Source of the DNA: Hufsiella ginkgonis
GTDB taxonomy: Bacteria > Bacteroidota > Bacteroidia > Sphingobacteriales > Sphingobacteriaceae
NCBI RefSeq assembly: GCF_009834915.1
Contig: NZ_WVHS01000003.1
Coordinates: 372,001 to 436,000, forward strand
Direction of reading: 5' to 3'
DNA length: 64,000 nt
Shown: piece after piece, positions 38,325 to 57,003 of the stretch
How the letters are laid out: each line of letters opens with the position of its first letter
Position numbering within the stretch: the first letter of the stretch is position 1
The notes under the pieces: generated by a model
Database searches by the model: none
What the model was told of the DNA's origin: nothing
Seen by the model: the letters and a program-made list of their open reading frames with translations, nothing else
Program-made: the position numbers and the translations under genes

Positions 38325-38810
38325 CTGGTTCATGTAGTCGTCGATACCTTTAAACAATAGCTGGTCATCGCGTTTCCAGGGTTTTCCGTTCTTATAGTCC
38401 CACCAACGGTATTCGATCTCCGAGTATTCGTGGGTAACCCCGGGCATGATGGGGTTCACATAAAAATTATAGGCCTGGAAAATGCAGCTGTCATTGCGAA
38501 CCAGTATAGCGATTTCAGGTTTTACCCAAAAGTAATTGCCCGATTCGCTGGTGGTGAGCTTAAAGATAGTGCTGCCGGAGATCCTTCCCGATAGTTTACC
38601 GGCATGCTGCAGTCCTTGGTCTTTTCCTTTGAAACTCGCTTTAAACCACGACAATGCTTTTTTATAAGCATCATCCCTCGTCCCGTTTACCGGGAACGAT
38701 CTTTCGTAAAAGACGATCCCCTTTTTAATGGGCATGCGGATGATAGAGTCCTTTTGTGCGAAGGAATGTATAGCCATAAATAAGGGCAGAAAGAAAATGA
38801 GCTTTTTCAT
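38292..38810 (-). CDS. DUF4468 (TBP-like fold) secreted protein
   Basis: From the ATG at 38810 (signal peptide MKKLIFFLPLFMAIHSFAQ) this 172-residue protein has a DUF4468 domain (about 30-130: FYERSFPVNGTRDDAYKKALSWF, GRISGSTIFKL). The family is common in Bacteroidota and has no known function. It starts 22 nt after nagB, so it may be the last gene of the amino-sugar operon. Its 3' end overlaps the convergent regulator gene by 33 bp. Confidence 0.8.
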   Translation of the reverse strand: MKKLIFFLPLFMAIHSFAQKDSIIRMPIKKGIVFYERSFPVNGTRDDAYKKALSWFKASFKGKDQGLQHAGKLSGRISGSTIFKLTTSESGNYFWVKPEIAILVRNDSCIFQAYNFYVNPIMPGVTHEYSEIEYRWWDYKNGKPWKRDDQLLFKGIDDYMNQLISGLHQEIK

Positions 38811-38832: not shown

Positions 38833-39570
38833 CTAAATCCTTCCCGCAATTCTTGATGCCGCTGCGGCATCAAGCAGGATCTCGCAATTGGGGTGCAGCT
38901 GCACCACCGAAGCGGGAATGTCTGTGGTAACAGGCCCCAGGATGGCCTGTTCGATAATTTCAGCCTTATGTACGCCCTTCGCGATCAGGATGAGTTTACG
39001 GGTGTGCATAATATTTTTTATTCCCCGTGTTAAGCCACCGAGCTCGATATGGGGCGGTACTTGCGTTTCCCTGCGCACACGCGCCTCAAAATCCGGGTCC
39101 ATGGGCGAAACCCAGGTTTCGCTTTCAAACGGTGTTCCCGGCTGGTTGATGCCGATATGACCGTTGCTGCCAATACCAAGCATTTGGAGGTCTGCGCCGC
39201 CGCGCGAAGCGAGGCGTTCTTCAAAGAGACGTGCTTCCGCTTCAAAATCATCCGAAAGCGTGGGCGGCATGATAAAGTTTTCTTCAGGGATGCCCAGCGG
39301 TCCTGCCAGTTGGTTGAGGATCATAGTGTAACAGCTCCCTGCGTAGTCCCGCGAAAGGTTGGTGAGCTCGTCGACATTAAACAAGGTGATCTTCGACACG
39401 TCGAACGGGTATTTCGCGTAGATATCCGACACGATAGCGTGCATATCAATCGTTGTCTGGCCGGTGGATAGCCCGATCACCGCATTGGGTTTTTCCAGCA
39501 TTTGGGCGATGATGCGCCAGGCAGCGGCGATATTAAATTCCTGTTCGGTAGAGGTTATAGTTATTTTCAT
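38833..39570 (-). CDS. nagB: Glucosamine-6-phosphate deaminase
   Basis: This 245-residue protein of the NagB/RpiA fold converts glucosamine-6-phosphate to fructose-6-phosphate and ammonia. Family features are AVIGLSTGQTT, the catalytic Asp in FNVDEL (D67), GIGSNGHIGINQPG with the catalytic His, and LTRGIKNIMHTRKLILIAKG. It lies in the PTS operon behind ptsH, separated by a 12-unit heptad array. It is the cytosolic exit step for the sugar phosphate made by the PTS; nagA is not present in the window. Confidence 0.94.
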   Translation of the reverse strand: MKITITSTEQEFNIAAAWRIIAQMLEKPNAVIGLSTGQTTIDMHAIVSDIYAKYPFDVSKITLFNVDELTNLSRDYAGSCYTMILNQLAGPLGIPEENFIMPPTLSDDFEAEARLFEERLASRGGADLQMLGIGSNGHIGINQPGTPFESETWVSPMDPDFEARVRRETQVPPHIELGGLTRGIKNIMHTRKLILIAKGVHKAEIIEQAILGPVTTDIPASVVQLHPNCEILLDAAAASRIAGRI

Positions 39571-39581
39571 GTTTTGGGGAA

Positions 39582-39665
39582 TCAGTTGTCAGTTGTCAGC
39601 TATCAGCTATCAGCTGTCAGCCGTCAGCTGTTAACTATCAGCCGGCAGCTATCAGCTGGCAGCAA
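39582..39665. repeat. 12-unit 7-bp-period array between nagB and ptsH
   Basis: Twelve consecutive heptamers with no slippage: TCAGTTG twice, TCAGCTA twice, then TCAGCTG, TCAGCCG, TCAGCTG, TTAACTA, TCAGCCG, GCAGCTA, TCAGCTG, GCAGCAA. The last two positions vary most. CAGCTG within units is self-complementary, so the mRNA could form many alternative hairpins inside the operon. Confidence 0.9.
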
Positions 39666-39670
39666 CAGTA

Positions 39671-39937
39671 TTACAAATTCTGCAGGTCTTCGTTGAAAAA
39701 TTTGTCGAGTTGGGTAGCGGCGAACAGTTTGTCCTCGCCGTCGATATGTACCAGGAGGATATCGCCGTGCTTGATGGCCAGCGACAGCAGCCCGATCATG
39801 CTTTGCAGCGGGATGCGTTTTTCGTTCTTGGTAACATGTATGGCCGATTTAAACTGTCGGGCAAGCCGGATCAGCGAGGTTGCGGGACGTGCATGGAGGC
39901 CGTTGGCGGCCAGGATCCTGTATTCTTTCGTGATCAT
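39671..39937 (-). CDS. ptsH: Phosphocarrier protein HPr
   Basis: This 88-residue protein has the HPr fold with phosphorylation site H15 in GLHARPAT and the regulatory-type S46 in LQSMIGLLSL. It receives phosphate from Enzyme I and passes it to EIIA. It overlaps ptsI by 4 bp. A Ser46 site suggests possible control by HPr kinase, whose gene is not in the window. Confidence 0.94.
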   Translation of the reverse strand: MITKEYRILAANGLHARPATSLIRLARQFKSAIHVTKNEKRIPLQSMIGLLSLAIKHGDILLVHIDGEDKLFAATQLDKFFNEDLQNL

Positions 39938-41652
39938 TGGCCTTCCTCCTTCAGATATCGGATGATGGTTGCGGAATTATCCATTTTCATTACGTTTTCT
40001 GTGATCTCCCGGGCCTTCGCCATGGAGTTATTTATTAGGATGTGTTTAATACCTGGAATGGCAGAGGCGCTCATGGAGAATTCCCGGAGACCCATGCCGA
40101 GCAGCAGCAGCGTGGCCATCGGGTCTGAGGCCATCTCTCCGCACATGCCCACGTGAATTTCGTGGAGATTGGCTTGTTCGATGGTGTTCCGGAGGAGGCG
40201 CAGCACCCCGGGGTTGTAAGGATCGTATACCTTTTCTACCTGCTGGTTCATACGGTCGGCGGCAACGGTGTATTGACAAAGATCGTTCGTGCCGATGCTG
40301 AAGAAATCGACCTCGCGGGCAAAAAGGTCGGCCATCACGGCTGCCGCCGGAATTTCGATCATCATCCCGATCTCGATGCCTGCGTTATAGGTGAGGTTGC
40401 TGGCTGCCAGTTCGTGTTTCGCTTTTTCGACCATCGCCTTTGCCTGGCGCAGCTCCTGCAGCGAAGAGATCATCGGGAACATGATCTTCAGGTTGCCATA
40501 GACCGAGGCCCTAAGGATCGCCTTCAGCTGGGTAATAAACAGGTCTTCGCGGTCGAGGCAGATGCGGATGGCCCGATATCCCAGGAAAGGGTTTTCTTCG
40601 GCGGGCAGCGGCAGGTAGGGAAGTTGTTTGTCTCCGCCGATATCCAGCGTGCGGATGATCAGGGTTCGGCTGGCCAGCTTTAACGCGGTTTTTTTGTAGA
40701 ACTCAAACTGCATTTCTTCCGTGGGGAATGAATCATGTCCAAGGAACAACATTTCCGTACGCAGCAGGCCGATGCCCTCGCCGCCGTTGGCCGTTACTAT
40801 TTCGAGCTCATCCGGGCCGGAGATATTCGCAAGGAGCTTCACCAGTTTTCCATCGCGGGTAACCGCCGGGATGTCTTTTAATGATTTTAACTTAAACTGG
40901 TCATTCTCGCGGGCTTTCTTCCTGTTGTACATGGCGATGGTAGCTTCATCCGGACGAATTATCACGAGCCCTTCCGAACCATCGGCTATCACCAGGTCAT
41001 CGTCGGCTACCTGCCCGGGCTCCATTACACAGCCTACAATGGCCGGGATGCCTTTAGACCGGGCGAGGATGGCGGTATGCGAGGTCTTTCCACCCATGCG
41101 TGTCACGATGGCCGATATGGTATCTGCCGTAAAGGTAAGTGCATCCGAGGGGGCGATATCCTCGGCGAACAGCACCGTATCCAGTTCAATGTGCGCCATT
41201 GATTCCGCGGTTCCCGGGCTTAATTGCCTCATCAGCCGGTTGCCGATGTCTTCGATGTCGGCCGACCGGGCACGCATATATTCGTCGTCCATTTGCCGGA
41301 ATACCTGTACCAGTGCGGCAATGGCTTCCAGCACCGCATCGTGCGCGGTCATTCGCCCCGTGCCGATCCGTTCGGTTACATCCCCCCGCAACTGGGGGTC
41401 GTTCAGCAATTCCACTTGTGTCTCCAGGATGTCGGACGCTTCGGCCGAAAGGTTGGTATTTTCGTTTCGAATGGCATTAATTTCGCGCAGGGAGCCAGTC
41501 ACCGCCTGTTCATAATTGGCCAGCTCCTGTTCAATTTCGGCATCGGTAGACAGCACTTTCCCGCGGAGCGCTGTTTTCGTTTTCCTGAGCACCCTGGCTT
41601 TGCCGATCGCAACGCCGGGTGAAACGCCTAAGCCGGTAATTTTGAGGTTCAT
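39934..41652 (-). CDS. ptsI: PTS Enzyme I (PEP-protein phosphotransferase)
   Basis: From the ATG at 41652 this is a 572-residue protein with the N-terminal HPr-binding and phosphohistidine domains (H192 in GGKTSHTAILARSKGIPAIVG) and the C-terminal PEP-binding barrel (RTEMLFLG, GTNDLCQYTVAADRMN, HVGMCGEMASDP). It takes phosphate from phosphoenolpyruvate and hands it to HPr. The start codon shares one base with the stop of the EIIC-EIID gene (TGATG), so translation is coupled. A longer start would run into that gene and is rejected. Confidence 0.95.
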   Translation of the reverse strand: MNLKITGLGVSPGVAIGKARVLRKTKTALRGKVLSTDAEIEQELANYEQAVTGSLREINAIRNENTNLSAEASDILETQVELLNDPQLRGDVTERIGTGRMTAHDAVLEAIAALVQVFRQMDDEYMRARSADIEDIGNRLMRQLSPGTAESMAHIELDTVLFAEDIAPSDALTFTADTISAIVTRMGGKTSHTAILARSKGIPAIVGCVMEPGQVADDDLVIADGSEGLVIIRPDEATIAMYNRKKARENDQFKLKSLKDIPAVTRDGKLVKLLANISGPDELEIVTANGGEGIGLLRTEMLFLGHDSFPTEEMQFEFYKKTALKLASRTLIIRTLDIGGDKQLPYLPLPAEENPFLGYRAIRICLDREDLFITQLKAILRASVYGNLKIMFPMISSLQELRQAKAMVEKAKHELAASNLTYNAGIEIGMMIEIPAAAVMADLFAREVDFFSIGTNDLCQYTVAADRMNQQVEKVYDPYNPGVLRLLRNTIEQANLHEIHVGMCGEMASDPMATLLLLGMGLREFSMSASAIPGIKHILINNSMAKAREITENVMKMDNSATIIRYLKEEGQ

Positions 41653-43232
41653 CAGCCGAAAATATTTAAGATGCTGCCAAGGAAACCAACGGCCAGTAAG
41701 CCCGGCAGCAGCCACGTGGTTTTTACGTTCTTTTTTACCAGGAAGTATACCAGGAAGGTAAGGCCCAGCGGGAGCACGCCGGGAATGACCTGGTCCAGCA
41801 CCCCCTGTACGGCGATCGGCGAACCATGTGTACCGATCGTAAGCGGCGTGGTAATAGGCATCAGCGTGGCGGGCATGGCGCCCACCACCATCATCCCCAG
41901 GATAGAGGCGCCATAAGTAAGCTTATCCAATACCTGGTTCCTGGCCATTTTCTGGAGGAACCTGGTGCCGGCGGTATACCCGATGAAAGTAAGCCGGTAC
42001 CGCAGTAAAAAATGGGGAATGTTAAAGATGAGCAGGAAGAGAATAGGGCCTAGCAGGCTGCCTTTTAATGCCAGGGAGGTGCCTACGCCGGCGGAGATCA
42101 CCTTAAGCGTGCCCCAGAAAAAGGAGTCGAAAACACCGGCGAGCGGTCCCATTAAGCCCAGTTTAACGGAGTTGATGGATTCTTCGTCAAAGCTTTTATC
42201 GCGGCTGTTCTGCTCTTCCATGGCGGCAGTAATACCCAGGATGAGCGTGGAGCCATGCGGTGCGGTATTAAAGAACTGCAGGTGCCGTTTCAGCGCTGCG
42301 GCCATGTCTTCCCGGGCGGGATATAGTTTCCGGAGCACCGGGATGATCGAAAAGGCGAAACCGGTATTTTGCCAGGTCTCAAAGTTAAAGTTCGCTTCCA
42401 GCGCCATCGACCGCAAGAAAACGCTCCTGAGCTCCCTTTTACCGATGCCTGATGGTCCGGCGGGCTCTTTTTCGGCCGTGAGGGGGTCCATGTCTTCTTC
42501 CCCGGGTTCGTCTTTGTGGGTAAGGCTGGTGATGATCAGCGCCGTAATAACGCCAAGTCCGCCGACAGCGATGAGCGGAAGTTTCAGGTAGCTTGTCATG
42601 ATAAAACCGAGGAAGAAATAAGGCGCTACATTTTTATTGAACATCAGGTTCATCAGCAAAGCGAAACCGAGCGCCGGCAGCATGTTCCCGGCTACCTGCA
42701 GTCCTGAATGTACCCAGGAGGGGACCTGGTCGAGCGCCATTTTAATCGCCTCCGAGCCCAACTGAAGGGCAAGCAGGGAGATGAAACCCATCAGCAGCGG
42801 TTTCAGTAGTCCCGAAAAAATATGCAGCCACTGGATCTTGCGGTAGTTCCCTTCTTCGGCATACCGGTTAAACCGCTTATTAAAAACGGGTCTGAACACG
42901 AACAGGCCGCTGATCAGTAATTCGGCCAGTATAGAGATTGGAACGGCCAGCGCGAGGGCTATCGCCGGTCCCTTTCCTGAAAGGATGGCAAAGGCGGTCC
43001 CGAGCACGCCGCCGGTGATCACGTCCGGCGGAATGGCCGCGCCAACCTTAATGTTTCCCATAAAAATGAGCTCGAGGGTAGCGCCGATCAGGATCCCCTG
43101 GTGAAGGTCGCCAAGAACAAGGCCTACGAGCGGCCCAAGCACCAGCGGGCGGCTGAGCAATGAAGTGCCGAGAAAATCTTCGGAGTGCCCGAACAGCACA
43201 ATGAGCGTAATAAGCAGGTAAGTGATGAACAT
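41652..43232 (-). CDS. PTS mannose/fructose/sorbose-class EIIC-EIID fusion
   Basis: This 526-residue protein joins two polypeptides that are normally separate. Residues about 1-238 are EIIC (VLGPLVGLVLGDLHQGILIGATLELIFMG, AAIPPDVITGGVLGTAFAI), 239-261 are a charged, Glu/Pro-rich linker, and 262-526 are EIID (GKRELRSVFLRSMALEANFNFETWQNTGFAFSIIPVLRKLY, FNTAPHGSTLILGITAAMEEQ, LGLMGPLAGVFDSFFWGTL). Together they form the sugar channel of a mannose-class PTS, in which EIIB phosphorylates the sugar during entry. Members of this class take glucosamine, GlcNAc, mannose or galactosamine; the substrate here is inferred from context. Confidence 0.92.
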   Translation of the reverse strand: MFITYLLITLIVLFGHSEDFLGTSLLSRPLVLGPLVGLVLGDLHQGILIGATLELIFMGNIKVGAAIPPDVITGGVLGTAFAILSGKGPAIALALAVPISILAELLISGLFVFRPVFNKRFNRYAEEGNYRKIQWLHIFSGLLKPLLMGFISLLALQLGSEAIKMALDQVPSWVHSGLQVAGNMLPALGFALLMNLMFNKNVAPYFFLGFIMTSYLKLPLIAVGGLGVITALIITSLTHKDEPGEEDMDPLTAEKEPAGPSGIGKRELRSVFLRSMALEANFNFETWQNTGFAFSIIPVLRKLYPAREDMAAALKRHLQFFNTAPHGSTLILGITAAMEEQNSRDKSFDEESINSVKLGLMGPLAGVFDSFFWGTLKVISAGVGTSLALKGSLLGPILFLLIFNIPHFLLRYRLTFIGYTAGTRFLQKMARNQVLDKLTYGASILGMMVVGAMPATLMPITTPLTIGTHGSPIAVQGVLDQVIPGVLPLGLTFLVYFLVKKNVKTTWLLPGLLAVGFLGSILNIFG

Positions 43233-43245
43233 CTTCCGGTGATTA

Positions 43246-43716
43246 TCAGATCAGGCTTTGTACGAATCGTTTTGTGTCAGACGGCACCTGCCTGATCTCC
43301 AGCTCAATCCCGTCATCTGCCAGTTGCCTGATAAGGGTAATGTCATCGTCGTTTACCGCGATGGCCTTCGAAATAAGCTTCGAGCCTTCTTTTCCGCGGA
43401 TGCCGCCAAAATTAACGGACCTGATCTCGGGCACCTGTGCCGATAGCAGTGCGGCGTCTTTAATCGAGCTTACCAGCAGCAGGATCTTTAAGGCCTTGCT
43501 TTTCTCGGAGTTAAGGAAGGTGATGCTTTCTTTTAATGATTTGATCATCAGTTGTGTGCGTGCCGGTTTGGCCAGGCCGAGCGTGAGCTTTAAAAATTCA
43601 TCGCTGGCCACTTTGTCGTTGGCTACCACCAGGCAATCGATCCCCAGGGAAGGTACCCAGGTAAATGCTACCTGGCCGTGTACCAATCGGTCGTCTATTC
43701 GTGTAAGTTTAATCAT
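43246..43716 (-). CDS. PTS mannose-class EIIB
   Basis: This 156-residue cytosolic phosphocarrier has the phosphorylation site H13 in RIDDRLVHGQVAFTW, followed by the Rossmann-like EIIB fold (CLVVANDKVASDEFLK). It takes phosphate from EIIA and transfers it to the incoming sugar. It overlaps the EIIA gene by 8 bp and lies 13 nt before the EIIC-EIID gene. Confidence 0.94.
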   Translation of the reverse strand: MIKLTRIDDRLVHGQVAFTWVPSLGIDCLVVANDKVASDEFLKLTLGLAKPARTQLMIKSLKESITFLNSEKSKALKILLLVSSIKDAALLSAQVPEIRSVNFGGIRGKEGSKLISKAIAVNDDDITLIRQLADDGIELEIRQVPSDTKRFVQSLI

Positions 43717-44131
43717 AAGTGTTTGTTGCTTGTTCCGTATTCATGAGTTTATTTACATAAACCAGTTGTTCTTTAGCGTTTGCAATGGCGTTTTCGATCA
43801 CTTCGTCCACCGGTTCTGCCGGGTCAGAAAGGATGATTTCCATTACAAGGGCGAGGTTAAAGCCCGACACCACGTGCGCCCTGCCCTGCAAAGCGTGGGT
43901 TAACACCTGGTTGGTGATGCTGCCGCCGAGCAGGTCGGTAAAAACGACCAGTTCGGCATCGGGGCTTACCTGCCCGAGCACGGCATCGAGCTCTTGTTCT
44001 ATCGTCCTGTTTTCGTCGACATAGGCTTGTATGATAAATACCTGCTCTGTGGCACCGGTGATGATATCGAGTGCCGATTTAACACCGGAAGAGAAGGTGC
44101 CGTGGGAAGCTATCAGGAATTGTCTCATCAT
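43709..44131 (-). CDS. PTS mannose-class EIIA
   Basis: This 140-residue protein of the EIIA-Man fold has active H10 in IASHGTFSSGV and the characteristic VVFTDLLGGSITNQVL segment. It relays phosphate from HPr to EIIB. Its start overlaps the stop of the copper amine oxidase gene by 4 bp, tying a cytosolic PTS component to a periplasmic oxidase. Confidence 0.93.
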   Translation of the reverse strand: MMRQFLIASHGTFSSGVKSALDIITGATEQVFIIQAYVDENRTIEQELDAVLGQVSPDAELVVFTDLLGGSITNQVLTHALQGRAHVVSGFNLALVMEIILSDPAEPVDEVIENAIANAKEQLVYVNKLMNTEQATNTYD

Positions 44132-46173
44132 TTTTTGGGTTGAATTTTTGCGGCTGGCATACCAGCTACCGGGTTGGACGACATAAATCCGTTTGGCATC
44201 AGGTTAATGGCTACGGTATGCTGGTTCATGATCGGCCACTCTTCGGTGCGCACTACATGGGTAACGCCTGTAACATACCACACCACCACGTCGGTATTAT
44301 CGATGCTGCGGTTTTTGGCGGTCCACGCCGGCAGCCCTTGTCCTTTTTGATTACTGGCCGGGTAGTCTCCCGCGGGATAGAATTCGTCGGGGTTATAAGG
44401 GGTGGCCCAGAAATGGTGCCATAGTACTTCGGTGCGGTTAAACAGCGAGGATGTTTTATCGGCCAGCGGAGTAGCTCCCGATGCCGGCATTAACATGTAG
44501 GAGGCATTATTGCCGAATTTATTTTTTACCGTGGGATTGCTCACCATCCAACTCCGGTTAGTGGCCGTATTTACGTCGCGCTGGGCATCTTTCTCTTTCA
44601 CGAACAGGGTCATTTTCGACACCAGGCTGTTGCCGAGCGGGTTGTTCGGGCCTTTCGGTACCTGGATGGTGTTCATCTCGCCTACGTTATTGGTCTGCCC
44701 GTCTACGTCCAGGTCGAAACGGTATACAAACCAGTGCTGGTGATTGGTCGCCTCGATATGCGGTCCCACGATGGTGCCGTACTGACTTCCCTGGTAAGGG
44801 ATGGTTTCGTCGGCCGTGGCAGGGTCCATGGCATTCATCGGCATGTTTTTCATATCGCCCATGTCGTTAGAAACGCGGGCCACGGTGCGGATATGGGGGA
44901 TGCCGTTCAGTTCGGTTTCCACGGTAATGTTGCCATCTTCCTTAAAGATCCATTTAAAGCCGTAGTCGTAGTTACCGGCCGTTACATAATATTTGATGGC
45001 CAGGTTGGTCGCCCTGCGCGAATAGTTTTCGTGCCGCCAGAGAATACCGCCATACTCCTCGAATACGGCGACGGAATTGTCGGATTTTATCGGGGAGCCG
45101 AATTCATCGTGCAGGGTTGCGGGCAGGTACGATGAATTCTCAGGGGCATCGGCGCCGATGGTGAGCGGACGTGCCTGGTCCTGGAAGAGGCGGTAAACCC
45201 CCACATCGAAATAATTGTTCACGGCATTTAAAAGATCCGGCGACCCGTAATTGACGATCATTTCGGCGAGCGAGCCGCGGTACATGATATAGCGCCATTT
45301 TTTCTGGGTATTGTCAAAGTACTGTACCTCCGAGATCACCAGTCCTTCGCGATTGTGAATACCAAACCGGAATTTCCAGAACGGGGAGATCACCTGGTTA
45401 CCCTCGATGCGGTAATTGGTTCCTTCGGGCTGGGTGATCACTACCGGTTTAGGCGCCGTGAGATCGGGTTTTAAGGTCTTTCCGTCGAAGTAGCTGATGG
45501 CCAGCCGTTCTGAATAGCCCTTACCCATGTCGATTACTTTCAGCACTTTTTTATCGGTAAGGTCGAGATAAGCGTAAATACCGGGGATAGGATTTTCGCT
45601 GTATTTCTTGTTCTTGTACTCCGGTGAAACGATCCGTTCACGATGACCGATGGGAGATAAGCCCACATCGGCCGCAAAATTCCCGCGGTGCGAACGAACG
45701 GAATCGGGATCGATACCTCTTTTGCGGAGCGCCGCGTTCCATTCCTTGTTGCCGTAAATGACCTGGGAAACCAGGATAGAATCCTGCCTGAACTTCCCGA
45801 CAGGTTGTTTGCCGGGCACGATCTCGTACGACAGCATTTTGGCCTCCCGCAGGTCGACCACCGTTTTGGCCATCGTGTTACTGGCATAGTCGTAAAGCAA
45901 AGCATATCCTTCGCGCCGGTAGGTTTGCCCTGGTTTCCAGGCGAGCACCTCTTGTTTAGGCGGTTCTTTCAGGTTGATGATGCTAAACAGGCTCAGGCTA
46001 TCATTACGAACTTTGCCGGCTTTGAGGAGCACCTGCCTCATCAGCCTGATCTCGGTAGAATCCAGCGGATCGAGCGGATGTTTGTATTGCATGGTGGTGC
46101 GCTGCTGGGCATCGGCGCGGTTGAAGAGGGAAAGGACCAGCGTGAAACAGAAAAGAGGTAAGGTTTTCTTCAT
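44128..46173 (-). CDS. Copper amine oxidase (primary-amine oxidase), secreted
   Basis: This 681-residue protein has a signal peptide (MKKTLPLFCFTLVLSLFNRADA), an N-terminal region with the N2/N3-like domains and the catalytic beta-sandwich. Key residues fit the family: catalytic base D323 in YFDVGVY, topaquinone precursor Y402 in TAGNYD, and copper ligands H478 and H480 (NHQHW) with H652 (MNQHTVAINL). Such enzymes oxidise RCH2NH2 to an aldehyde with release of ammonia and H2O2 in the periplasm. All catalytic residues are present, so activity is likely. The gene is in one transcription unit with a PTS, and its stop overlaps EIIA by 4 bp. The true substrate is not known. Confidence 0.93.
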   Translation of the reverse strand: MKKTLPLFCFTLVLSLFNRADAQQRTTMQYKHPLDPLDSTEIRLMRQVLLKAGKVRNDSLSLFSIINLKEPPKQEVLAWKPGQTYRREGYALLYDYASNTMAKTVVDLREAKMLSYEIVPGKQPVGKFRQDSILVSQVIYGNKEWNAALRKRGIDPDSVRSHRGNFAADVGLSPIGHRERIVSPEYKNKKYSENPIPGIYAYLDLTDKKVLKVIDMGKGYSERLAISYFDGKTLKPDLTAPKPVVITQPEGTNYRIEGNQVISPFWKFRFGIHNREGLVISEVQYFDNTQKKWRYIMYRGSLAEMIVNYGSPDLLNAVNNYFDVGVYRLFQDQARPLTIGADAPENSSYLPATLHDEFGSPIKSDNSVAVFEEYGGILWRHENYSRRATNLAIKYYVTAGNYDYGFKWIFKEDGNITVETELNGIPHIRTVARVSNDMGDMKNMPMNAMDPATADETIPYQGSQYGTIVGPHIEATNHQHWFVYRFDLDVDGQTNNVGEMNTIQVPKGPNNPLGNSLVSKMTLFVKEKDAQRDVNTATNRSWMVSNPTVKNKFGNNASYMLMPASGATPLADKTSSLFNRTEVLWHHFWATPYNPDEFYPAGDYPASNQKGQGLPAWTAKNRSIDNTDVVVWYVTGVTHVVRTEEWPIMNQHTVAINLMPNGFMSSNPVAGMPAAKIQPKK

Positions 46174-46185
46174 GGTGCTATCTGA

Positions 46186-46398
46186 TTAATTACGGATCGG
46201 CTCATACAACCGCCTGACCAGGCGATTATTAAAAATTGTCCTTCTCATTTCCGCCGGATCGGTCGTGCCTTGCCGAGCATAAACGATCTTGCCTCCGGGT
46301 TCTCCGGTCGAAAGCGTTTTAACGTCCTGTGAAAACGGTAAGGTGCTCCGGCATAGCAGCAACGCGGTAATGATAAATGTCCTGGTAAGATCTTTCAT
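46186..46398 (-). CDS. Small secreted protein of unknown function
   Basis: From the ATG at 46398 this is a 70-residue protein with a signal peptide (MKDLTRTFIITALLLCRSTLPFS) and a mature part of about 46 residues rich in Arg (MRRTIFNNRLVRRLYEPIRN). No homologue is recognised. It starts 11 nt after the second GH9 gene and ends 12 nt before the amine oxidase, so it belongs to the operon. A longer in-frame start (46470) would overlap the GH9 gene. Confidence 0.55.
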   Translation of the reverse strand: MKDLTRTFIITALLLCRSTLPFSQDVKTLSTGEPGGKIVYARQGTTDPAEMRRTIFNNRLVRRLYEPIRN

Positions 46399-46409
46399 AT
46401 ACTGCCTGT

Positions 46410-49351: not shown

Positions 49352-49352
49352 C

Positions 49353-50153
49353 TTATTTATTTTTCCTGCCGAGCCAAAGGATGGCGTCGCCGAACATTTT
49401 ATTTTGTAAGTCGCTGGTGAATATGTGGCTGCCATGGCCCATGTTCATATATAGCATATTGTATTTGTTGTTAGTCCACACCACGGGCGTGTCGCCACCC
49501 CTGATCTGGTCCTTAATACCAAGCGGGTAGTTCACCGGGTCGAGCGTTACCAATACCGTTACGTCCTTATTCAGGCGGGGGCTGGGCTCCCACGTATACC
49601 ATTCATTCGCCGGGGCACGGTACACGGCCGGCATGCGGTGTGTAACAGGGTGTTTCCGGTTATCCACAATTAATTGCACCGGCAGCGGCGGCCAGTTATT
49701 CATGTGGAAAACTCCGCCGCCCAAAAAGGCGAGGTACCAGGGCCATTTGGTATAACGGTCGTTATACGCGGCTACATGGAACCCGAGCCATCCGCCGCCG
49801 CTCTCCATATATTTCTCGAAAACAGCACGCTGGGCCGGGTTTTGCGGAAAATCATTTATCCACATCACTACCTGGTAGTCGCGGAGTTTTTCCTCGTTCA
49901 TATCGGACCAATGTGTGGTCGAATCGAACGTGAAGTGTTTCTTTTCAGCCAGCCTGGCGAAGTATTTAAGTGCATCCCGTTTAAATACCACGTGATCGCG
50001 TTCTACGGTATTTGAGTAAAAGGCGAGTACCTTAAAAGTTGATTGTGCGAAAACCGGGCTGCAGAAGAGCAGGAAAATAGTGGAGAACAGTAATCTTTTG
50101 CGTGCTCCTGCACGCTCAGCATAACAGGCGGACGTTATTTTTTTGATGCCCAT
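49353..50153 (-). CDS. ThuA domain secreted protein
   Basis: This 266-residue protein has a signal peptide (LLFSTIFLLFCSPVFA) and a ThuA domain (FKVLAFYSNTVERDHVVFKRDA, YQVVMWINDFP, GGGWLGFHVAAYN, NEWYTWEPSPRLN, PVVWTNNKYNMLYMNMGHGS). It is closely similar in layout to the ThuA protein at 32952-33794. Its start overlaps the end of the GH20-ThuA gene by 19 bp. The function in amino-sugar metabolism is unknown. Confidence 0.86.
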   Translation of the reverse strand: MGIKKITSACYAERAGARKRLLFSTIFLLFCSPVFAQSTFKVLAFYSNTVERDHVVFKRDALKYFARLAEKKHFTFDSTTHWSDMNEEKLRDYQVVMWINDFPQNPAQRAVFEKYMESGGGWLGFHVAAYNDRYTKWPWYLAFLGGGVFHMNNWPPLPVQLIVDNRKHPVTHRMPAVYRAPANEWYTWEPSPRLNKDVTVLVTLDPVNYPLGIKDQIRGGDTPVVWTNNKYNMLYMNMGHGSHIFTSDLQNKMFGDAILWLGRKNK

Positions 50154-52753
50154 GAGATCGCGTTTTTAAAGAGGGTTAAATAGTCAGGGTTGTCAAAAAG
50201 ATCGGGAGAGTGGCCCATAAAGATGTACACGTTGCGGGCCGCAACATTCGGGTTGGTCCATATCACCGGGTGGTCGCCCATTTTGATTTTAGAATCGGGG
50301 ACGTAGGTAGCCTCATTTACGCTGGCCAGCACGGTTACGTTTGGCCTTGGACTTTTATTATAGGTATACCATTCTTCCTTCCTGACGGGGAAACTGGGAG
50401 GTATGCCCTTCATCACCGGGTGATCTTTTGCTTCGTTCTTTACAGTGGCGGCGGCAAAAGTGGCTATGTAATTTTTATAGGTGATATCGCCCATAAAACC
50501 AGAGAACCATTTCCACATCGGGTAACCGTCAAACTCGCCCAGCAGTGTGGCGTGGTGGAAGCCGATCCAGCCGCCGCGACCTTCGGTAACGTATTTTTGA
50601 AAAGCGGTTGCCGCCGAATCCGTCCAGGCATATGGCGGATAATCCAACTGGATAAAAAGCTGGAACTGTTTAAGGTAGTCTTCAGTGACCGGTTTCGTGT
50701 TGCGGATAAAAACGAACGAAAAGCTGCTGTCGGCCCCAAGCTTATTGAGGTATTCTTTTGCCCTGGCTGAGTAGGCTTCGTGGTGACCGCCATTTTCGGC
50801 TAGCACGAGCACCCTGAACCTGGGTTCGCGGTTAGCTGCGCGCGTACGCAGGTCCTTCACAGGAATGGTCATCATCCGGCCTATCGGTTTTTTTCCCCGG
50901 TAGGTGATCATTCTCATTTGTGTGGCGTCCTTCGGCGGGACCACCGGGGAGGTATATTTTGGATAGAACCGGTCGGGATAGGTATTGTCAAAGCTGTAAT
51001 AGATGTCAAGGCCGTCGATCTCTGTACGCAGTACGATGTTCAAATCGCCCGAGGGGTTAACTTCGCTGCGGATTACCGGGTCGTACATCGCGGGAGAATA
51101 TTTCACCTCGGCGGCATCGAAGCGTGCAAACTGCTGCTCCACCCGGGGGATAAAACTTTTCCAGCTCTTTTTTTCTTTTGGCGACCAAACAGATTCAGAC
51201 AAGGCGAAGGCACGGGGCCAGGTCATATACTGCGCATGGCGAAGGTTATACACCTGCTCGGTCCATAAGTTGGCCTGCCCGCCTTTAATGTATTTTGCGT
51301 CGGCCCCTGCCGGGACCGGCTCGAATTTATAGGCTTTTTCCAATCGTAAGCTGGCGTAGATCAACGGCTCGGTGGCCGGATCGCCCTGCATGTAATCGAG
51401 GTAGCCAAAGCTGGTAGGGCTCATTACCACATCGTGTTTCAGGATACTGGCTTCTACACCGCCTTTTTCGCCGCGCCAGCTCATAACGGCTGCACCGGGC
51501 GCCAGTCCGCCTTCCAGGATCTCGTCCCAGCCGATCAGCTTCTTCCCTTTAGAATTAACGATGGCGCTTACCCGTTTCTCGAAATAGCTTTGTACTTCGT
51601 GCATGCTTTTTAGCCCTTCGCGCTGCATCAGGGCTTTTACGGCGTCGCTTTTCTCCCAGAAGTTCTTCGCACACTCGTCGCCGCCCACGTGAATATACCC
51701 AAACGGGAAGAGCGGGGCCATTTCTGAAAACACCTTGTCCAGAAACTCGTAGGCTTTTTCATTGGCAGGGCAGATCGTATTGTCAATGCTGGCGATAATG
51801 CCGTCAGGTTTCCAATCCATAAAATTGGCATCACCCGAACTTACCTGGTAATTTACCGCATCAGGGGTACAGGAAATTTCGGGATACGAGGCCACGGCGG
51901 CAAGGCTATGCCCGGGCACATCTACTTCCGGAAGCACGTTAATAAAGCGGTCCTGGGCATATTTTACCACCTCGCGGATCTCTTCCTGGGTGTAAAACCC
52001 GCCCTGGGTGCGGGGAGTGCCTGGCTCTGAAGGTGCAAAATTGCCGAATTTGCCCACTTTCGGGATATTCCAGGCCCCTTTCTTTGTTAGATTGGGCAGG
52101 CTTTTGATCTCGATCCGCCAGCCCTCATCGTCTGTTAAATGCCAGTGAAACAGGTTCAGCTTGTAACGCGACATCTGGTCGATATACGCCTTAACGTCCT
52201 GTACGGAGAAGAAATGCCGCGCTACGTCGAACATCAGCCCCCGCCATTCGAACCGCGGGTAATCGGTAATGCTTACGTGGGGAACGGTCCAACGCACAGT
52301 GTTAACCGGGTCATGGCTTTCTATTTCGGCAGGAAGCAACTGCACAAGCGTTTGAGCGCCATAGAACAGGCCGGCGGGCTGATTGGCGCGGATGATGATC
52401 CCCGCCGCGCTGCTGGTGAGGTGGTAGCCTTCTTTACCGATTTCAGGGTCGTTCTTCGTGGTCAGTATTAACCGGATAGTGGCAGCACTGGGTTTGCCGG
52501 TGGTTTTTACCGTGTACCCGGTCGCTACTGCCAGCTTCTGCCCGAGGAACGAGGTAACGGGAGCAATACCGGTACCTGCCGCCTGGATCGTGATCTGCCT
52601 TGGTAAGGTAAACCTTCCCGGGTGTTCCGTAACCTTTACCGGCTCGGGGATGAGCTTTACCTGGCTTTTACCGGCCGATCCCAGCAACATCAGTAAAACT
52701 GGAGCGAGAAAAAACTTTTTTAAGGACTTCCTGGAGCTAAAATTCCGGTTCAT
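50135..52753 (-). CDS. GH20 beta-N-acetylhexosaminidase fused to a ThuA domain
   Basis: This 872-residue protein has a signal peptide (FFLAPVLLMLLGSAGKS), a GH20b N-terminal domain (about 30-150) and a GH20 catalytic barrel. The catalytic Asp-Glu pair is D359-E360 in HVGGDECAKNFW, and the FEWRGLMFDVARHFF strand is present. A chitobiase C-terminal-like module (about 560-635) follows, then a complete ThuA domain (about 645-872: FRVLVLAENGGHHEAY, GGWIGFHHA, EEWYTYNKSPRPN, HPVIWTNPN). It removes terminal GlcNAc from chitooligosaccharides. The fusion implies that ThuA acts on the same substrate or product. Confidence 0.92.
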   Translation of the reverse strand: MNRNFSSRKSLKKFFLAPVLLMLLGSAGKSQVKLIPEPVKVTEHPGRFTLPRQITIQAAGTGIAPVTSFLGQKLAVATGYTVKTTGKPSAATIRLILTTKNDPEIGKEGYHLTSSAAGIIIRANQPAGLFYGAQTLVQLLPAEIESHDPVNTVRWTVPHVSITDYPRFEWRGLMFDVARHFFSVQDVKAYIDQMSRYKLNLFHWHLTDDEGWRIEIKSLPNLTKKGAWNIPKVGKFGNFAPSEPGTPRTQGGFYTQEEIREVVKYAQDRFINVLPEVDVPGHSLAAVASYPEISCTPDAVNYQVSSGDANFMDWKPDGIIASIDNTICPANEKAYEFLDKVFSEMAPLFPFGYIHVGGDECAKNFWEKSDAVKALMQREGLKSMHEVQSYFEKRVSAIVNSKGKKLIGWDEILEGGLAPGAAVMSWRGEKGGVEASILKHDVVMSPTSFGYLDYMQGDPATEPLIYASLRLEKAYKFEPVPAGADAKYIKGGQANLWTEQVYNLRHAQYMTWPRAFALSESVWSPKEKKSWKSFIPRVEQQFARFDAAEVKYSPAMYDPVIRSEVNPSGDLNIVLRTEIDGLDIYYSFDNTYPDRFYPKYTSPVVPPKDATQMRMITYRGKKPIGRMMTIPVKDLRTRAANREPRFRVLVLAENGGHHEAYSARAKEYLNKLGADSSFSFVFIRNTKPVTEDYLKQFQLFIQLDYPPYAWTDSAATAFQKYVTEGRGGWIGFHHATLLGEFDGYPMWKWFSGFMGDITYKNYIATFAAATVKNEAKDHPVMKGIPPSFPVRKEEWYTYNKSPRPNVTVLASVNEATYVPDSKIKMGDHPVIWTNPNVAARNVYIFMGHSPDLFDNPDYLTLFKNAISWASKK

Positions 52754-52799
52754 AGTTTCGTTATTAAGCCGATCGGCCGTGATTTATTCTTGTGCCGGG

Positions 52800-53915
52800 C
52801 TATCTTAATTTATCGTTCATTACGTCGAGTAAATACTCCTTAGGGTCCGAGTCATATTCCCAGAACATTACACCGCCCATGCGATGCTTCAGCACGTATT
52901 TACATTTGTTTTTTACCGACCATTCATCATCGTACGTCATAAACTGCAGGGTAGAGGCATTAAACAGGTAAGGGGCTTTTGCCGCTTTGTCGCGGTAAGC
53001 GGTAAATCCTTTTTTATTAACCAGGCTGTCTTTTATGAACGTGTATCCTTTCCCGAAAGAATGAGACAGCATCGCATCGCCGATCCCTTTTTGAGCGCCT
53101 TCTTTCAGCTTGGAAGTTTTGCCGTAGAACGCCACGCCCATCACCAGTTTGCCGGCCGGTACGCCCGCTGCGATATAAGACCGGATGGCCTTATCCGCAT
53201 CATTGCTTGATTTATAAAGCTTTGAAGCATACAGGTTTGTGTGGTGTCCGGCAATCGAGCTGTAGTAATAGTCGTAGGTCATCAGGTTGATATAATCCAG
53301 GTATTGTTGTGCTTTTCCCATCTCCGAGTGATCGAGGAACGATTCAAAGCCTCCCACCGCGGTGGTAAGCAGTTTATGTTTACCGGTTTCTTTCTCCAGT
53401 ACATCCAGTTCTTTGCGCAAGGCTTCGAACATCAGGGTGAAATTTTGTTTATCCTCCGGCCGGTGAATGTTTCCTTGCTCGCCCTGCATATCGGGATATT
53501 CCCAATCGATATCTACCCCGTCTAGCTGGTATTTGCGGATAATACCGGCTGCGCTCGCCGCGAAGGCCTGCCGGGAAGTATCGGTGAGTACGGCGTCTGA
53601 GAAGTTCTCGCTCCACGACCAGCCGCCGATGGAGATCAGGATCTTAAGGTCCGGGTTCTTTTTCTTCAACAGTACCAGGTTGCGGAAATTGGTACTGTCG
53701 GTACGGAGATTGGTAAGCACCGCCCGGTTGTTCTGCACGTTTACGAACGCGTAGTTGATGTGCGTTAATTTTTCGGCATTAATGCGGTCGGCTTTTACCA
53801 GGCCTTTGTAGCCGCCGATGTACCCGATGATCACCGGTTTCGGCTTGTCGGCCACCTTCATAGAAAGCACCGAAATGATCAGCGCTACGAAACAAGTAGT
53901 AAGTATAGTTCTCAT
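52800..53915 (-). CDS. GH18 chitinase
   Basis: This 371-residue protein has a signal peptide (ILTTCFVALIISVLSMKVAD) and a GH18 barrel with the full motif DGVDIDWEYP (catalytic E139). Other family strands are ILISIGGWSWSENF, YINLMTYDYY and KLVMGVAFYG, with an alpha/beta insertion (AYRDKAAKAPYLF). This is the second, more canonical GH18 of the locus and a candidate endo-chitinase. It overlaps the acyltransferase gene upstream by 4 bp. Confidence 0.93.
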   Translation of the reverse strand: MRTILTTCFVALIISVLSMKVADKPKPVIIGYIGGYKGLVKADRINAEKLTHINYAFVNVQNNRAVLTNLRTDSTNFRNLVLLKKKNPDLKILISIGGWSWSENFSDAVLTDTSRQAFAASAAGIIRKYQLDGVDIDWEYPDMQGEQGNIHRPEDKQNFTLMFEALRKELDVLEKETGKHKLLTTAVGGFESFLDHSEMGKAQQYLDYINLMTYDYYYSSIAGHHTNLYASKLYKSSNDADKAIRSYIAAGVPAGKLVMGVAFYGKTSKLKEGAQKGIGDAMLSHSFGKGYTFIKDSLVNKKGFTAYRDKAAKAPYLFNASTLQFMTYDDEWSVKNKCKYVLKHRMGGVMFWEYDSDPKEYLLDVMNDKLR

Positions 53916-55084
53916 ATTTTTAACCGGATCCTTCCTTTTTCCATAAATCTTACCAGGAGAATAACGAAGAGTGAAACCCCGACAGAACGGATCGCCCCGC
54001 CAAATCCTGTATTGAGGGCATCGGGATAATTAAAATGGGTCAATTCAAAAATAAAGTACAGGAGATATGGAACGAGGTAACAGGTGAGGGTGCTCGTTCC
54101 TGCGGGGCGAATGATCTTAAACCAGTCCTGTTTTCCTTTCCTGTCGACCAGGAAAATGAGGAGCTCGAAAACGAGTATGGTAATGCCGGCACAGATCAAT
54201 ACCCAGGCCGGTGTAGATTGAATTTTGGAGAGCCCGCCTGCAAACGGGCGGACCAGGAAGCCGCAAATGATGGCTAACGTTCCGGCTATGCCGAAAATGA
54301 TCCACAATAAATGATCTTTTCCCTTCCCGGATAGCCTTGAGTACGTGCCGGTGATCACGATTCCCCCCATCACAAGCGCTACCGAGGATCCGTCGTCTAT
54401 CAGCGGAATATTGAACCAATAGAACCCGGCATGGTTAGAAATATTAATGCCAAGGAATGCGAACAAAAGCACCAGCAGCACCCAGAAATTCTCTTTTACC
54501 AGGAAGAACAGGGAGGCGCAAACGAGGTATGCCCAGCCGATGATACCGAGAATGCCCCACCAGGAAGGCTCCATGCCATGCGGGTTCGCATCGTCGCCGC
54601 CTTTATATAGGCAGGCCATCAGGACCAGGATAGCCACGCCAATGCCTATCGGTACGTACCGTTTTAGTTTCGGCCAGGATTCAGGATAATCCAGCCAGAT
54701 CAGGAAGAAGGCGATGGTGATCAGCAATCCCCAAACAGGGTAAGGCAGTACGGCCGCCGAACTGTAGCTCTCCAGGTTCACATGGAAAAAACCCATCACG
54801 ATGAGCGCCAGCGAACGGGTAAAAATGTAGATGGCTACCTGCAGGAACGAGTCGCCCTTGTTTACCCGTGCGCGGATCGCCAGCGGAATGGAAAGTCCCA
54901 CGATAAAAAGAAAGGCCGGGAAGATAAGATCCGCAAACCCCATGCGGTCCTCATTGCCTTCGGCATGTTCCATCCAGGCGGGGATATTGGCCACCCCGCT
55001 CAGATCGTTCACAAAGATCATCAGGAACATAGTGATCGCGCGGAGCACGTCGAGGGAAAGAAGTCGTTTGGGGAGTTGGCGCAT
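53912..55084 (-). CDS. DUF5009/HGSNAT-like transmembrane acyltransferase (second copy)
   Basis: This 390-residue protein has about ten membrane helices and starts RLLSLDVLRAITMFLMIFVND. The active-site region differs from its paralogue: MEHAEGNEDRMGFADLIFPAFLFIVG keeps the His-Ala but has a longer, charged insertion. It belongs to the same COG4299 family as the gene at 48230-49351. It probably acetylates another acceptor. A 63-bp heptad array separates it from the upstream GH9 gene. Confidence 0.78.
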   Translation of the reverse strand: MRQLPKRLLSLDVLRAITMFLMIFVNDLSGVANIPAWMEHAEGNEDRMGFADLIFPAFLFIVGLSIPLAIRARVNKGDSFLQVAIYIFTRSLALIVMGFFHVNLESYSSAAVLPYPVWGLLITIAFFLIWLDYPESWPKLKRYVPIGIGVAILVLMACLYKGGDDANPHGMEPSWWGILGIIGWAYLVCASLFFLVKENFWVLLVLLFAFLGINISNHAGFYWFNIPLIDDGSSVALVMGGIVITGTYSRLSGKGKDHLLWIIFGIAGTLAIICGFLVRPFAGGLSKIQSTPAWVLICAGITILVFELLIFLVDRKGKQDWFKIIRPAGTSTLTCYLVPYLLYFIFELTHFNYPDALNTGFGGAIRSVGVSLFVILLVRFMEKGRIRLKI

Positions 55085-55120
55085 TTTTAGCTGATGTCTT
55101 GATTGTACCTGATATGCTGT

Positions 55121-55226
55121 ATTATCTATTATCTATTATCTATTGTCTATTATCTGATTGCTAATAACTAATAACCATTAACCTATTTGTACCCCCAATC
55201 AAGCTGTTACTCGTTAGCTATCAGCC
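55121..55226. repeat. 7-bp-period arrays between GH9 and acyltransferase genes
   Basis: Nine heptamers run at 55121-55183: ATTATCT three times, ATTGTCT, ATTATCT, GATTGCT, AATAACT, AATAACC, ATTAACC. After a gap, three more follow at 55206-55226: GTTACTC, GTTAGCT, ATCAGCC. The unit sequence drifts gradually but the 7-nt spacing is kept. Confidence 0.85.
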
Positions 55227-55230
55227 ACAG

Positions 55231-57003
55231 CTATCTCTCTTCCGCCATTGCGGCTACTGCCTGTAAAAACCATGCAGCATGCGGGATCCATTGTTCCGTC
55301 CAGCGCCATTCGTTGCCGTTCGCGCTGATTTTAAAATCGATACCGCTGCCGTCGGCGTTGCCGTCTTTGCCTGTTATGCCGTTGGATATGCCTCCTTTTC
55401 CCGACCCATGTCCGTAATTGGACGACATATACGGCACGTTATTTTTCCCGAACTGGTAAAGGAAACACATCGAGTAGGGGTTACGGCCGAGGATCCACGA
55501 TAACTGGTTTGCCGCGAATTCCGCCAGTTCGGGTTTTACCCCCCATCCGCCTTTGGCGGGATACACCAGCCGGCCGCCTATGATAGCCGCCGCCGCGAGG
55601 GAGCCAAGTCGTGCATTTTCACCCTGCCACCACCAGCCGGTCTCGTTTTCGTGGGGGATAAAAAAGCCGTTTTGGATATTACCCTTGTAGCGGAACGTTT
55701 GCCGGGCGTAGCCGAAGGGATTGTTGGTTTCGGAGGTCACGCGGAGGTTATAATCGAGCGCTGCTTTAATGGTCGCCAGTGCCGGGGCGGTATATGCCGG
55801 GTCGGTCTCTTTGGTTAAATAGCGCGAAAGTGCGACCACCGGCAGCCCGGCGTCAGAAGCATGCCAAAATGGGCGGTTGCCATCATCGGCGATAAAGTAT
55901 CCCTGGGGACTTAATCTTTTTTCGAGGTTCGCCGCACGTTTACGGGCCTCCGTCCGGTAACGCGGATCATTGGTAGCGATCCATAGTTCGGTAGCGCCAA
56001 GGAGCGCGCAATAATCATCGATAATATTTTCTTTCCCGTCATCCGTGTAGCGGGTGTTATTAATCAGCAGGTGATCGAACGCCTTTTTTGCGGCTTCGAG
56101 ATACGCTGCGGAGGTAAAATCTCCGTCTTTTCCAAGCATTGAGATCCGGGCAAGGGCGGCAATCGCCAGTCCCCCGCCTTCGCGGAAAGCGCTCTGGTAT
56201 TCGTTGGTAGTTATGCTGTTGGCCTTTAAGCCGACCACGCGGCGTGCAGAAGGATCTTTTTTAAAGTAACTGAAAATGATCATGCGGAAGTATCCGCTGT
56301 CTGACAGGGCGCGCATCATATAGTCGGCTCCCCAGATCGCCTCTTGCCGGAGCGAGTCCTTTACGGCGCCCGGAAGCAATCGCGGCAGGGCATCGTTGGC
56401 GCTCAGCATCGACCAAACAACGAGGGGTGTTTGTTGCGGCGACATAAAATTAGCGTACGCCAGGTGAGAAAAGTACTTACTCACATCGCCCGATGCGTCG
56501 CACCAGCCGCCGCGCATGTCGGCTGTTTCATTGCTGCCGTATAGCAATACTTTCGCATCCGCGGAAAGTTCTGCCGGCGTATCGGCACGCTGATGGGTGT
56601 AATAGGAAATAATGGCCGGGACGGTACGCACCGCGAGTGCATGAGCGGATATTTCAAAAGGTTCGGAACGGTATTCCTTGCCGCCTGAAGTGGTGCTGAC
56701 CACGTATTTGCCGGTTTTCGTAAATGCGGAAAAGTTAGCGCGGTAATAATACTTGCCAGGCGCCCAATCGCCGATGGTGGTTGCCTGCTCGCAGGGCGCG
56801 GTAAGTACGGTTTTATTTCCGGTAAGGCTTATTAACGAGAACGTAGGTTTGGACGGCGCCGGCGAATCCAGGCGGATCACCGCCATTTTTGGTCCTGCGG
56901 CATCCAGTGCCACCTGGTTAACATAAATGGCGGGTTGCGCAGCACTAACCGCCGGCAGCAAAAGAAATAGGCCGGGAAGAATAACGGATCTAAACTTTTT
57001 CAT
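55231..57003 (-). CDS. GH9 family glycoside hydrolase, secreted
   Basis: This 590-residue protein has a signal peptide (VILPGLFLLLPAVSAA), a CelD_N Ig-like domain (about 22-115) and a GH9 barrel with GGWCDASGD and WWWQGENARLGSLAAAA. It has the same architecture as the GH9 at 46410-48233 but is clearly divergent from it. It is the first gene of the PTS-containing operon, and a GTAG-N7-GTAG element lies 67 bp upstream. A glucosaminidase role is inferred from context. Confidence 0.9.
   Translation of the reverse strand: MKKFRSVILPGLFLLLPAVSAAQPAIYVNQVALDAAGPKMAVIRLDSPAPSKPTFSLISLTGNKTVLTAPCEQATTIGDWAPGKYYYRANFSAFTKTGKYVVSTTSGGKEYRSEPFEISAHALAVRTVPAIISYYTHQRADTPAELSADAKVLLYGSNETADMRGGWCDASGDVSKYFSHLAYANFMSPQQTPLVVWSMLSANDALPRLLPGAVKDSLRQEAIWGADYMMRALSDSGYFRMIIFSYFKKDPSARRVVGLKANSITTNEYQSAFREGGGLAIAALARISMLGKDGDFTSAAYLEAAKKAFDHLLINNTRYTDDGKENIIDDYCALLGATELWIATNDPRYRTEARKRAANLEKRLSPQGYFIADDGNRPFWHASDAGLPVVALSRYLTKETDPAYTAPALATIKAALDYNLRVTSETNNPFGYARQTFRYKGNIQNGFFIPHENETGWWWQGENARLGSLAAAAIIGGRLVYPAKGGWGVKPELAEFAANQLSWILGRNPYSMCFLYQFGKNNVPYMSSNYGHGSGKGGISNGITGKDGNADGSGIDFKISANGNEWRWTEQWIPHAAWFLQAVAAMAEER

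Follow-up and report, generated by a model that had tools for sequence, protein, structure and literature searches.

What is a complete phosphoenolpyruvate (PEP)-dependent phosphotransferase system (PTS) doing among glycoside hydrolase genes in a bacterium of the class Bacteroidia, and which sugar does it import? Sugar uptake in this class is usually described as the work of SusCD proteins together with inner-membrane permeases and kinases. The question is raised by a stretch of 64,000 nucleotides from Hufsiella ginkgonis (RefSeq assembly GCF_009834915.1, contig NZ_WVHS01000003.1, forward-strand positions 372,001 to 436,000; hereafter the window, numbered from its first letter), in which minus-strand genes between positions 38833 and 57003 combine hydrolases with PTS components. 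A survey from 2008 described Bacteroidetes as lacking the PTS (PMC2405797). The reading favoured here, with appreciable reservations, is that a dedicated mannose-family PTS forms the core of an amino-sugar utilisation locus, by which glucosamine would be imported and then enter a fructose-6-phosphate route.

Six minus-strand genes make up this core. They encode EIIA (43709-44131; PF03610, 55 bits), EIIB (43246-43716; PF03830, 147.6 bits), a fused EIIC-EIID or EIICD (41652-43232; PF03609, 248 bits, and PF03613, 324 bits), Enzyme I (EI, ptsI; 39934-41652; TIGR01417, 617.8 bits against a cut-off of 341.7, and PF02896, 383.6 bits), the phosphocarrier HPr (39671-39937; PF00381, 74.5 bits) and a nagB-like sugar-phosphate enzyme of the NagB/6-PGL fold family (38833-39570). 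The EIIA-man, EIIB-sorb, EIIC-Sor and EIID domains all pass their Pfam cut-offs. As the original prediction had claimed, the phosphorylation histidines are all intact (His192 of EI, His15 of HPr, His10 of EIIA and His13 of EIIB), and that of EIIB is kept in aligned relatives as well. The numbering of EI counts from the methionine at 41652, and this ATG, which overlaps the EIICD stop codon, is the likely start of the gene; the listed open reading frame (ORF) begins instead at a GTG inside EIICD. The EIIC-EIID fusion is retained in 12 of 12 aligned relatives, at 71-74% identity. These domain and residue assignments describe a complete mannose-family PTS, supplied within the window with an EI and an HPr of its own, for which PEP-dependent transport is predicted.

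Does this system serve the cell more widely? The genome (5.2 Mb, 99.99% complete) holds one EI (TIGR01417), one HPr, one EIIA-man and one EIIC-Sor; the self-contained PTS of the window is the only one. The second PF00391 match in the genome is an ORF of 883 amino acids, taken as a PPDK-like protein. Searches of the genome found neither an HPr kinase nor a PF00359-type EIIA, although HPr retains Ser46 in the alignment. A single EI and a single HPr, with HPr kinase missing, give the PTS the look of a single-purpose transporter and not of a global regulator. It offers a clean example of such a system without the usual regulatory parts.

Is the arrangement peculiar to this genome? About 69 Bacteroidota loci, spread over four orders, contain the six-gene cassette EIIA-EIIB-EIICD-EI-HPr-nagB-like; the figure is a lower bound, as the contig search with two peptide patterns kept the best 80 loci, of which 69 fall in the Bacteroidota-type group. 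The genera concerned are Mucilaginibacter, Pedobacter, Daejeonella, Dyadobacter, Chryseolinea, Chitinophaga, Puia, Ferruginibacter, Flagellimonas and Allomuricauda. Nearly all of the 69 loci keep the cassette order. Among 300 genomes of the order Sphingobacteriales, 14 have a full EIIC, and the order and strand of the six genes are identical in all 14 (HPr fell under the ORF filter in two of them and was recovered by alignment); the arrangement is thus beyond chance. The nagB-like gene is present in all 14 of these genomes and in one other (Fisher 4e-23), close orthologues of GH9b, one of the two GH9 enzymes of the window, occur in 11 of the 14 and in 6 of the 286 others (Fisher 1e-13), and the cassette genes co-diverge, with Spearman coefficients of 0.61-0.89 between their distance matrices.

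Which other genes travel with the cassette? In 52 long loci the nagB-like gene is present in every case and EI, EIIA, EIIB and HPr each in 51, while an exo-type GH9 lies within 10 kb in 41, ThuA in 32, a Reg_prop/GerE regulator in 26, GH18 in 13 and an amine oxidase in 7. Over all 69 loci, ThuA proteins are near 38 cassettes, homologues of the Reg_prop/Y_Y_Y/GerE regulator of the window near 28 and those of its copper amine oxidase near 10; clustering finds a thioredoxin-like gene in 31 loci, and in part of the Cytophagales and Flavobacteriales loci an NrtR/AraR-type regulator substitutes for the Reg_prop regulator. What is conserved is a core of PTS, exo-GH9 and nagB-like enzyme, to which ThuA, the thioredoxin-like protein and a regulator are often added. 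Only 0-2 of the 69 have GH20, NagX or SusCD of the window type nearby, and this setting is specific to the H. ginkgonis locus. The original prediction had described an operon running from the outer to the inner membrane; such a locus is present here, but because GH20, NagX and SusCD are nearly absent from other cassettes, that picture is specific to this genome. Likewise, the co-occurrence of PTS genes with GH9, GH18 and GH20 that it suggested looking for was found in related genomes for GH9 and, in fewer loci, for GH18, and hardly at all for GH20.

How rare is a PTS in this phylum? The rarity that had been claimed holds for the class Bacteroidia, where EI (at E 1e-80) was detected in 1 of 395 sampled genomes, that of H. 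ginkgonis, but not for the wider GTDB phylum Bacteroidota, where 277 of 395 genomes have EI and the listed matches all fall outside the class except H. ginkgonis. The sampled EI genes of the other classes lie beside HPr in loci of ~4.7 kb, without cassette-like EIICD or nagB. Since the class sample missed known cassette carriers (Mucilaginibacter, Dyadobacter and others), the figure of 1 in 395 measures scatter and not absence. The cassette is scattered and not widespread, and a search of open-licence literature for a PTS in Mucilaginibacter, Dyadobacter or Bacteroidetes loci returned no description of it, which is no proof of absence. With its recurrence in four orders and its fixed enzyme partner, this complete, dedicated PTS places PEP-coupled uptake in the repertoire of some Bacteroidia.

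What do the hydrolases say about the sugar? The two GH9 enzymes, GH9a (55231-57003, minus) and GH9b (46410-48233, minus, with a signal peptide), match VP2484, VC0615 and PBPRA0520 at 405-458 bits: GH9a reaches 405-445 bits with these three and matched no other GH9 in the PDB, and GH9b reaches 450 bits with VC0615 (6gdt) and 426 with PBPRA0520 (5dgq). An ordinary cellulase is ruled out, as endoglucanase structures reach at most 48 bits. GH9b aligns gap-free with catalytic Asp140, Asp144 and Glu546 and with both long exo-loops; in GH9a the catalytic motifs were recognised by eye. VC0615, for which the catalytic residues and the long loops that close the pocket have been described, is more active on (GlcN)2 than on (Glc)2 (PMC6096475). 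Both enzymes of the window are thus placed, by sequence, in the Vibrio/Photobacterium exo-glucosaminidase branch. Because both GH9s point to exo-glucosaminidases, the substrate would be of the glucosamine/chitosan type and not simply chitin.

Is the last gene of the cassette an ordinary nagB? Its product belongs to PF01182 (63.6 bits against a cut-off of 27), scores 125 bits with Bacillus subtilis NagB (2bkv) and retains the Asp base (NVDE), the His, the TGxT loop and a Lys near the C-terminus; the motif NGHIGINQP is found in 65 of 65 copies and STGQTT in 64 of 65. At 17 positions, however, the family is fixed for a residue that differs from the one common to three canonical NagBs, and aromatic residues have been lost (Tyr to Leu69, Tyr to Cys80, Phe to Ile141 and Phe to Thr169). 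The copies are 79-92% identical to that of the window (median 87%), whereas EI is only 41-57% identical; Flagellimonas and Allomuricauda copies are 83-84% identical, and the lowest value, 79%, comes from a locus without a PTS. Four-fold sites are saturated for the nagB-like gene (0.31) as for EI (0.33) and EIICD (0.34), at a nagB-like protein identity of 0.85. Recent transfer of nagB alone is thereby ruled out as the cause of the high identity, and selection therefore maintains the sequence. A canonical NagB is also present in the genome, on another contig (652 aa, NEPG kept, 32% identical to the nagB-like protein). The only NagA over its cut-off likewise lies on another contig; the lack of nagA in the cassette is as expected, because the proposed substrate is unacetylated. 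Judged by alignment, the gene that the original prediction called nagB belongs to PF01182 but forms, with its changed active site, a subfamily separate from ordinary NagB. A near-frozen sequence combined with an altered catalytic residue poses a concrete question for enzymology.

In the favoured reading, SusCD and SusE-like proteins would carry chitin- or chitosan-type oligomers into the periplasm. There, to judge from family branch and catalytic residues, GH18 (52800-53915, minus; PF00704, 272.8 bits; motif DGVDIDWE) would shorten the chains, GH20 (a beta-hexosaminidase fused to Fn3-assoc and ThuA domains, 50135-52753, minus; PF00728, 378.9 bits; PF06283, 135.7 bits; GGDE at 357) would take off terminal N-acetylglucosamine (GlcNAc), and the two GH9s would take off terminal glucosamine. 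Glucosamine would then cross the inner membrane through the fused EIIC-EIID and be phosphorylated, presumably at C6, by a relay from PEP through EI, HPr, EIIA and EIIB; the chain and its histidines are observed, and the substrate and the C6 position are predicted. The nagB-like enzyme, despite its altered active site, may convert the amino-sugar 6-phosphate to a ketose 6-phosphate, that is, glucosamine-6-phosphate to fructose-6-phosphate. Leftover glucosamine may be acetylated by the NagX-like protein (48230-49435, minus), a predicted transmembrane glucosamine N-acetyltransferase, for a separate GlcNAc route that would draw on NagA and canonical NagB encoded elsewhere in the genome. The NagX-like protein contains PF07786 with the catalytic histidine at His68 of the listed frame (EHASW), its start is likely to lie later than the listed ATG, and its score of 175.9 bits on the NCBIfam NagX model is below the equivalog cut-off of 480. 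The role of NagX was proposed from fitness data (PMC9007349). If this scheme is correct, the locus suggests an amino-sugar route of import with phosphorylation, which Bacteroidia were thought to lack.

Several observations weigh against this scheme. The nagB-like protein falls under all NCBIfam deaminase cut-offs (TIGR00502, 141.5 against 236.9; NF001684, 185 against 326). In the numbering of Escherichia coli NagB, where His143 and Glu148 are the catalytic pair, Glu148 is replaced by Gln in 65 of 65 cassette copies, the His of the pair being kept. At the position of Tyr148 in VC0615, which lies close to the 2-amino group and belongs, with Trp220 and Tyr232, to the -1 subsite, GH9b carries His; here His is found in 32 GH9b-type sequences and Tyr in 17 of the GH9a type. 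The top NCBIfam models for EIIA and EIIC are those of N-acetylgalactosamine/galactosamine PTS, under their cut-offs, and 11 of the 52 long loci have no GH9 inside 10 kb. Finally, a terminator-like hairpin (57137-57167, minus; 14-bp stem and T-run) stands between the SusCD genes and the hydrolases, all of which are on the same strand; because it separates SusCD from GH9a, the genes from SusC through nagB need not share one transcript.

Might the imported sugar be something other than free glucosamine? The strongest rival, an unlikely one, is that the PTS imports another C2-amino sugar, for example an N-substituted glucosamine (glucoselysine-like, or a catechol or peptide adduct), and that the nagB-like enzyme acts as a deglycase, freeing the bulkier amine much as deglycases of the SIS family do in related PTS loci. 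Outside Bacteroidota, the nearest EIIC and EIID, at 44-53% identity, come from Bacillota/Collinsella loci, and 10 of the 11 on the list place at least one SIS-type cluster gene beside the PTS; the representatives scanned match SIS, with GlmS-, NagB-II- and fructoselysine-6-P-deglycase-like models below cut-offs. The smaller residues that replace the aromatics of NagB, with the Asp base, His and TGxT loop retained, are consistent with this rival, as are the change near the 2-amino pocket of GH9b and the presence of a canonical NagB in the genome. Yet no SIS deglycase occurs among the neighbours of the PTS in the window or in the conserved cassette set, the characterised relatives of the exo-GH9s act on plain GlcN or Glc, and any conclusion from pocket residues to substrate size draws on an alignment and not a structure. 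A more specific version, to be held still more tentatively, is that a modified exo-GH9 releases modified or N-substituted glucosamine for the mannose-family PTS and that the nagB-like protein is a new phospho-amino-sugar deglycase with Gln in place of the ring-opening Glu; such an enzyme would have arisen outside the SIS deglycases and been kept across soil and marine Bacteroidia, and the cassette would then import an amino sugar in a manner seen in no known system.

It is rather improbable that the PTS is an Aga-like system for galactosamine or another hexosamine, with the nagB-like protein as an AgaI-type isomerase. The best NCBIfam models are AgaF for EIIA (69.5 bits, below its cut-off, against 40.1 for EIIA-man) and AgaW for EIIC (201 bits, also below), and the nagB-like protein scores 132.6 bits on the galactosamine-6-phosphate isomerase model, close to its 141.5 on nagB. 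All these scores are far under the cut-offs, however, EIID matches generic and mannose models best, and the exo-GH9, GH18, GH20 and NagX are of chitin/chitosan type, with no galactosaminidase seen at the locus. Less probable again is a beta-glucan locus in which GH9 acts as a beta-glucosidase and the PTS takes up the glucose or mannose released. Mannose-family PTS commonly transport these two sugars. VC0615, for its part, also hydrolyses beta-glucosides (PMC6096475). Against this, the nagB-like gene accompanies the PTS in 52 of 52 long loci and GH18, GH20 and NagX are found at the locus, none of which is needed for glucose. That the block is mainly regulatory, with EI, HPr and EIIA sensing PEP or an amino sugar to control expression with little transport, is hardly credible: EIs of other Bacteroidota classes, beside HPr without cassette-like EIICD or nagB, could be regulatory, but here EIIB and EIIC-EIID are complete and highly conserved (72%), the genome lacks HPr kinase and PF00359-type EIIA, and the pairing with a catabolic-type enzyme is fixed.

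How are the genes of this putative glucosamine locus arranged? Every gene named in the original prediction was found on the minus strand within 38833-57003. The transcription order is GH9a, a DUF5009/HGSNAT-type membrane acyltransferase (53912-55084; PF16401 and PF07786; EHA at 38-40), GH18, GH20-ThuA, a secreted ThuA-domain protein (49353-50153; PF06283, 131.5 bits), the NagX-like gene, GH9b, a secreted copper amine oxidase of presumably accessory role (44128-46173; PF01179, 365 bits), EIIA, EIIB, EIIC-EIID, EI, HPr and the nagB-like gene; the ThuA gene and the ThuA fused to GH20 had been omitted from the earlier list. About 15 tightly packed genes had been described, and the packing is mostly tight, with overlapping start and stop codons at the amine oxidase/EIIA, EIIA/EIIB, EIICD/EI and EI/HPr junctions, but gaps of ~100 nt (HPr to nagB), 236 nt (GH9b to amine oxidase) and 146 nt (acyltransferase to GH9a) interrupt the run. 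The HPr-nagB gap (39570-39671) is filled by a 7/14-nt tandem repeat of the CAGCTGA/TAGCTGA type. In the window, a search for the Bacteroidota -33/-7 promoter pattern found none, and sigma-70-like promoter matches are at chance level. The ThuA protein scores 274 bits with 4jqs, which is itself uncharacterised, and a search of open-licence literature on ThuA with 3-keto sugars returned no description of this system. The amine oxidase contains HQHW, and a signal peptide and an NYD motif were recognised by eye.

The locus extends past both ends of this run. Upstream, on the minus strand, are two SusE-like candidates for surface glycan binding assigned by Pfam (57178-58485, DUF4998/DUF5013; 58507-59757, DUF4959/DUF5126/DUF5000), with the hairpin lying between the former and GH9a, a SusD-like lipoprotein (59751-61682; PF07980, 180.8 bits) and a SusC-like TonB-dependent transporter (61687-64000, continuing to ~64992 beyond the window). 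The SusC/SusD pair adjoins the hydrolases; SusD is assigned by Pfam, and SusC from its place beside SusD and its sequence, since the 747-aa part inside the window has no Pfam match. Downstream lie a secreted 172-aa protein (38292-38810, minus), without a Pfam match, that is probably the last gene in the run and belongs to a homologue cluster found in other cassettes, a convergent Reg_prop/Y_Y_Y/GerE transmembrane-type regulator (35412-38324, plus; Pfam), a second GH18 (34224-35198, minus; PF00704, 128.6 bits) and a further ThuA-domain protein (32952-33896, minus; PF06283, 107.5 bits).

Two other loci deserve mention. L052, from a Sphingobacteriales genome (G267) outside the 14, has the nagB-like gene, ThuA, GH18, HGSNAT and the regulator without a PTS, and is a probable PTS-less relic. 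At L052:7959-10901 a stop near 9990 divides the regulator adjoining the nagB-like gene into two ORFs. The cassette of L117 (EIICD 64% identical), with genes of the SusC/SusD clusters, is counted among the 69 and is on a contig titled Beijerinckiaceae, which is probably a mis-binned Bacteroidota contig. Taken as a whole, the earlier observation on the H. ginkgonis locus is confirmed and its interpretation is partly supported.

How does the locus compare with known systems? The chitin/chitosan catabolism of Vibrionaceae (VC0615, PBPRA0520) shares the exo-GH9 branch, at 405-458 bits, but the GH9s of the window carry signal peptides, share their Bacteroidota locus with a self-contained mannose-family PTS and, in GH9b, have His for Tyr148. 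The NagX transacetylase pathway (PMC9007349) shares a NagX-like gene with a conserved His; in the window this gene adjoins a PTS that may take glucosamine directly, and it was not found near the other cassettes. NagB-I of E. coli and B. subtilis (2bkv) and the nagB-like family have in common PF01182, the NVDE Asp base, the His, the TGxT loop and the Lys of the C-terminal region, and differ in Glu148 to Gln (65 of 65), DEY to DEL, TGxTP to TGQTT and the 17 family-fixed positions. The Bacillota loci L127-L137, which we take to be gfr-type fructoselysine/glucoselysine PTS, have the closest EIIC and EIID outside the phylum and also an amino-sugar-phosphate enzyme beside the PTS; they use SIS-family enzymes and a sigma-54 activator, whereas the cassettes have the nagB-like enzyme together with regulators of the Reg_prop/GerE or NrtR type. 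ManXYZ and AgaVWEF (TC 4.A.6), of which E. coli ManXYZ takes up glucosamine, have the same IIA, IIB, IIC and IID domains and phosphorylation histidines. The system of H. ginkgonis differs from them in its fused IIC-IID, in the EI and HPr within the block, in its divergent nagB-like partner and in a host class that has been described as PTS-free.

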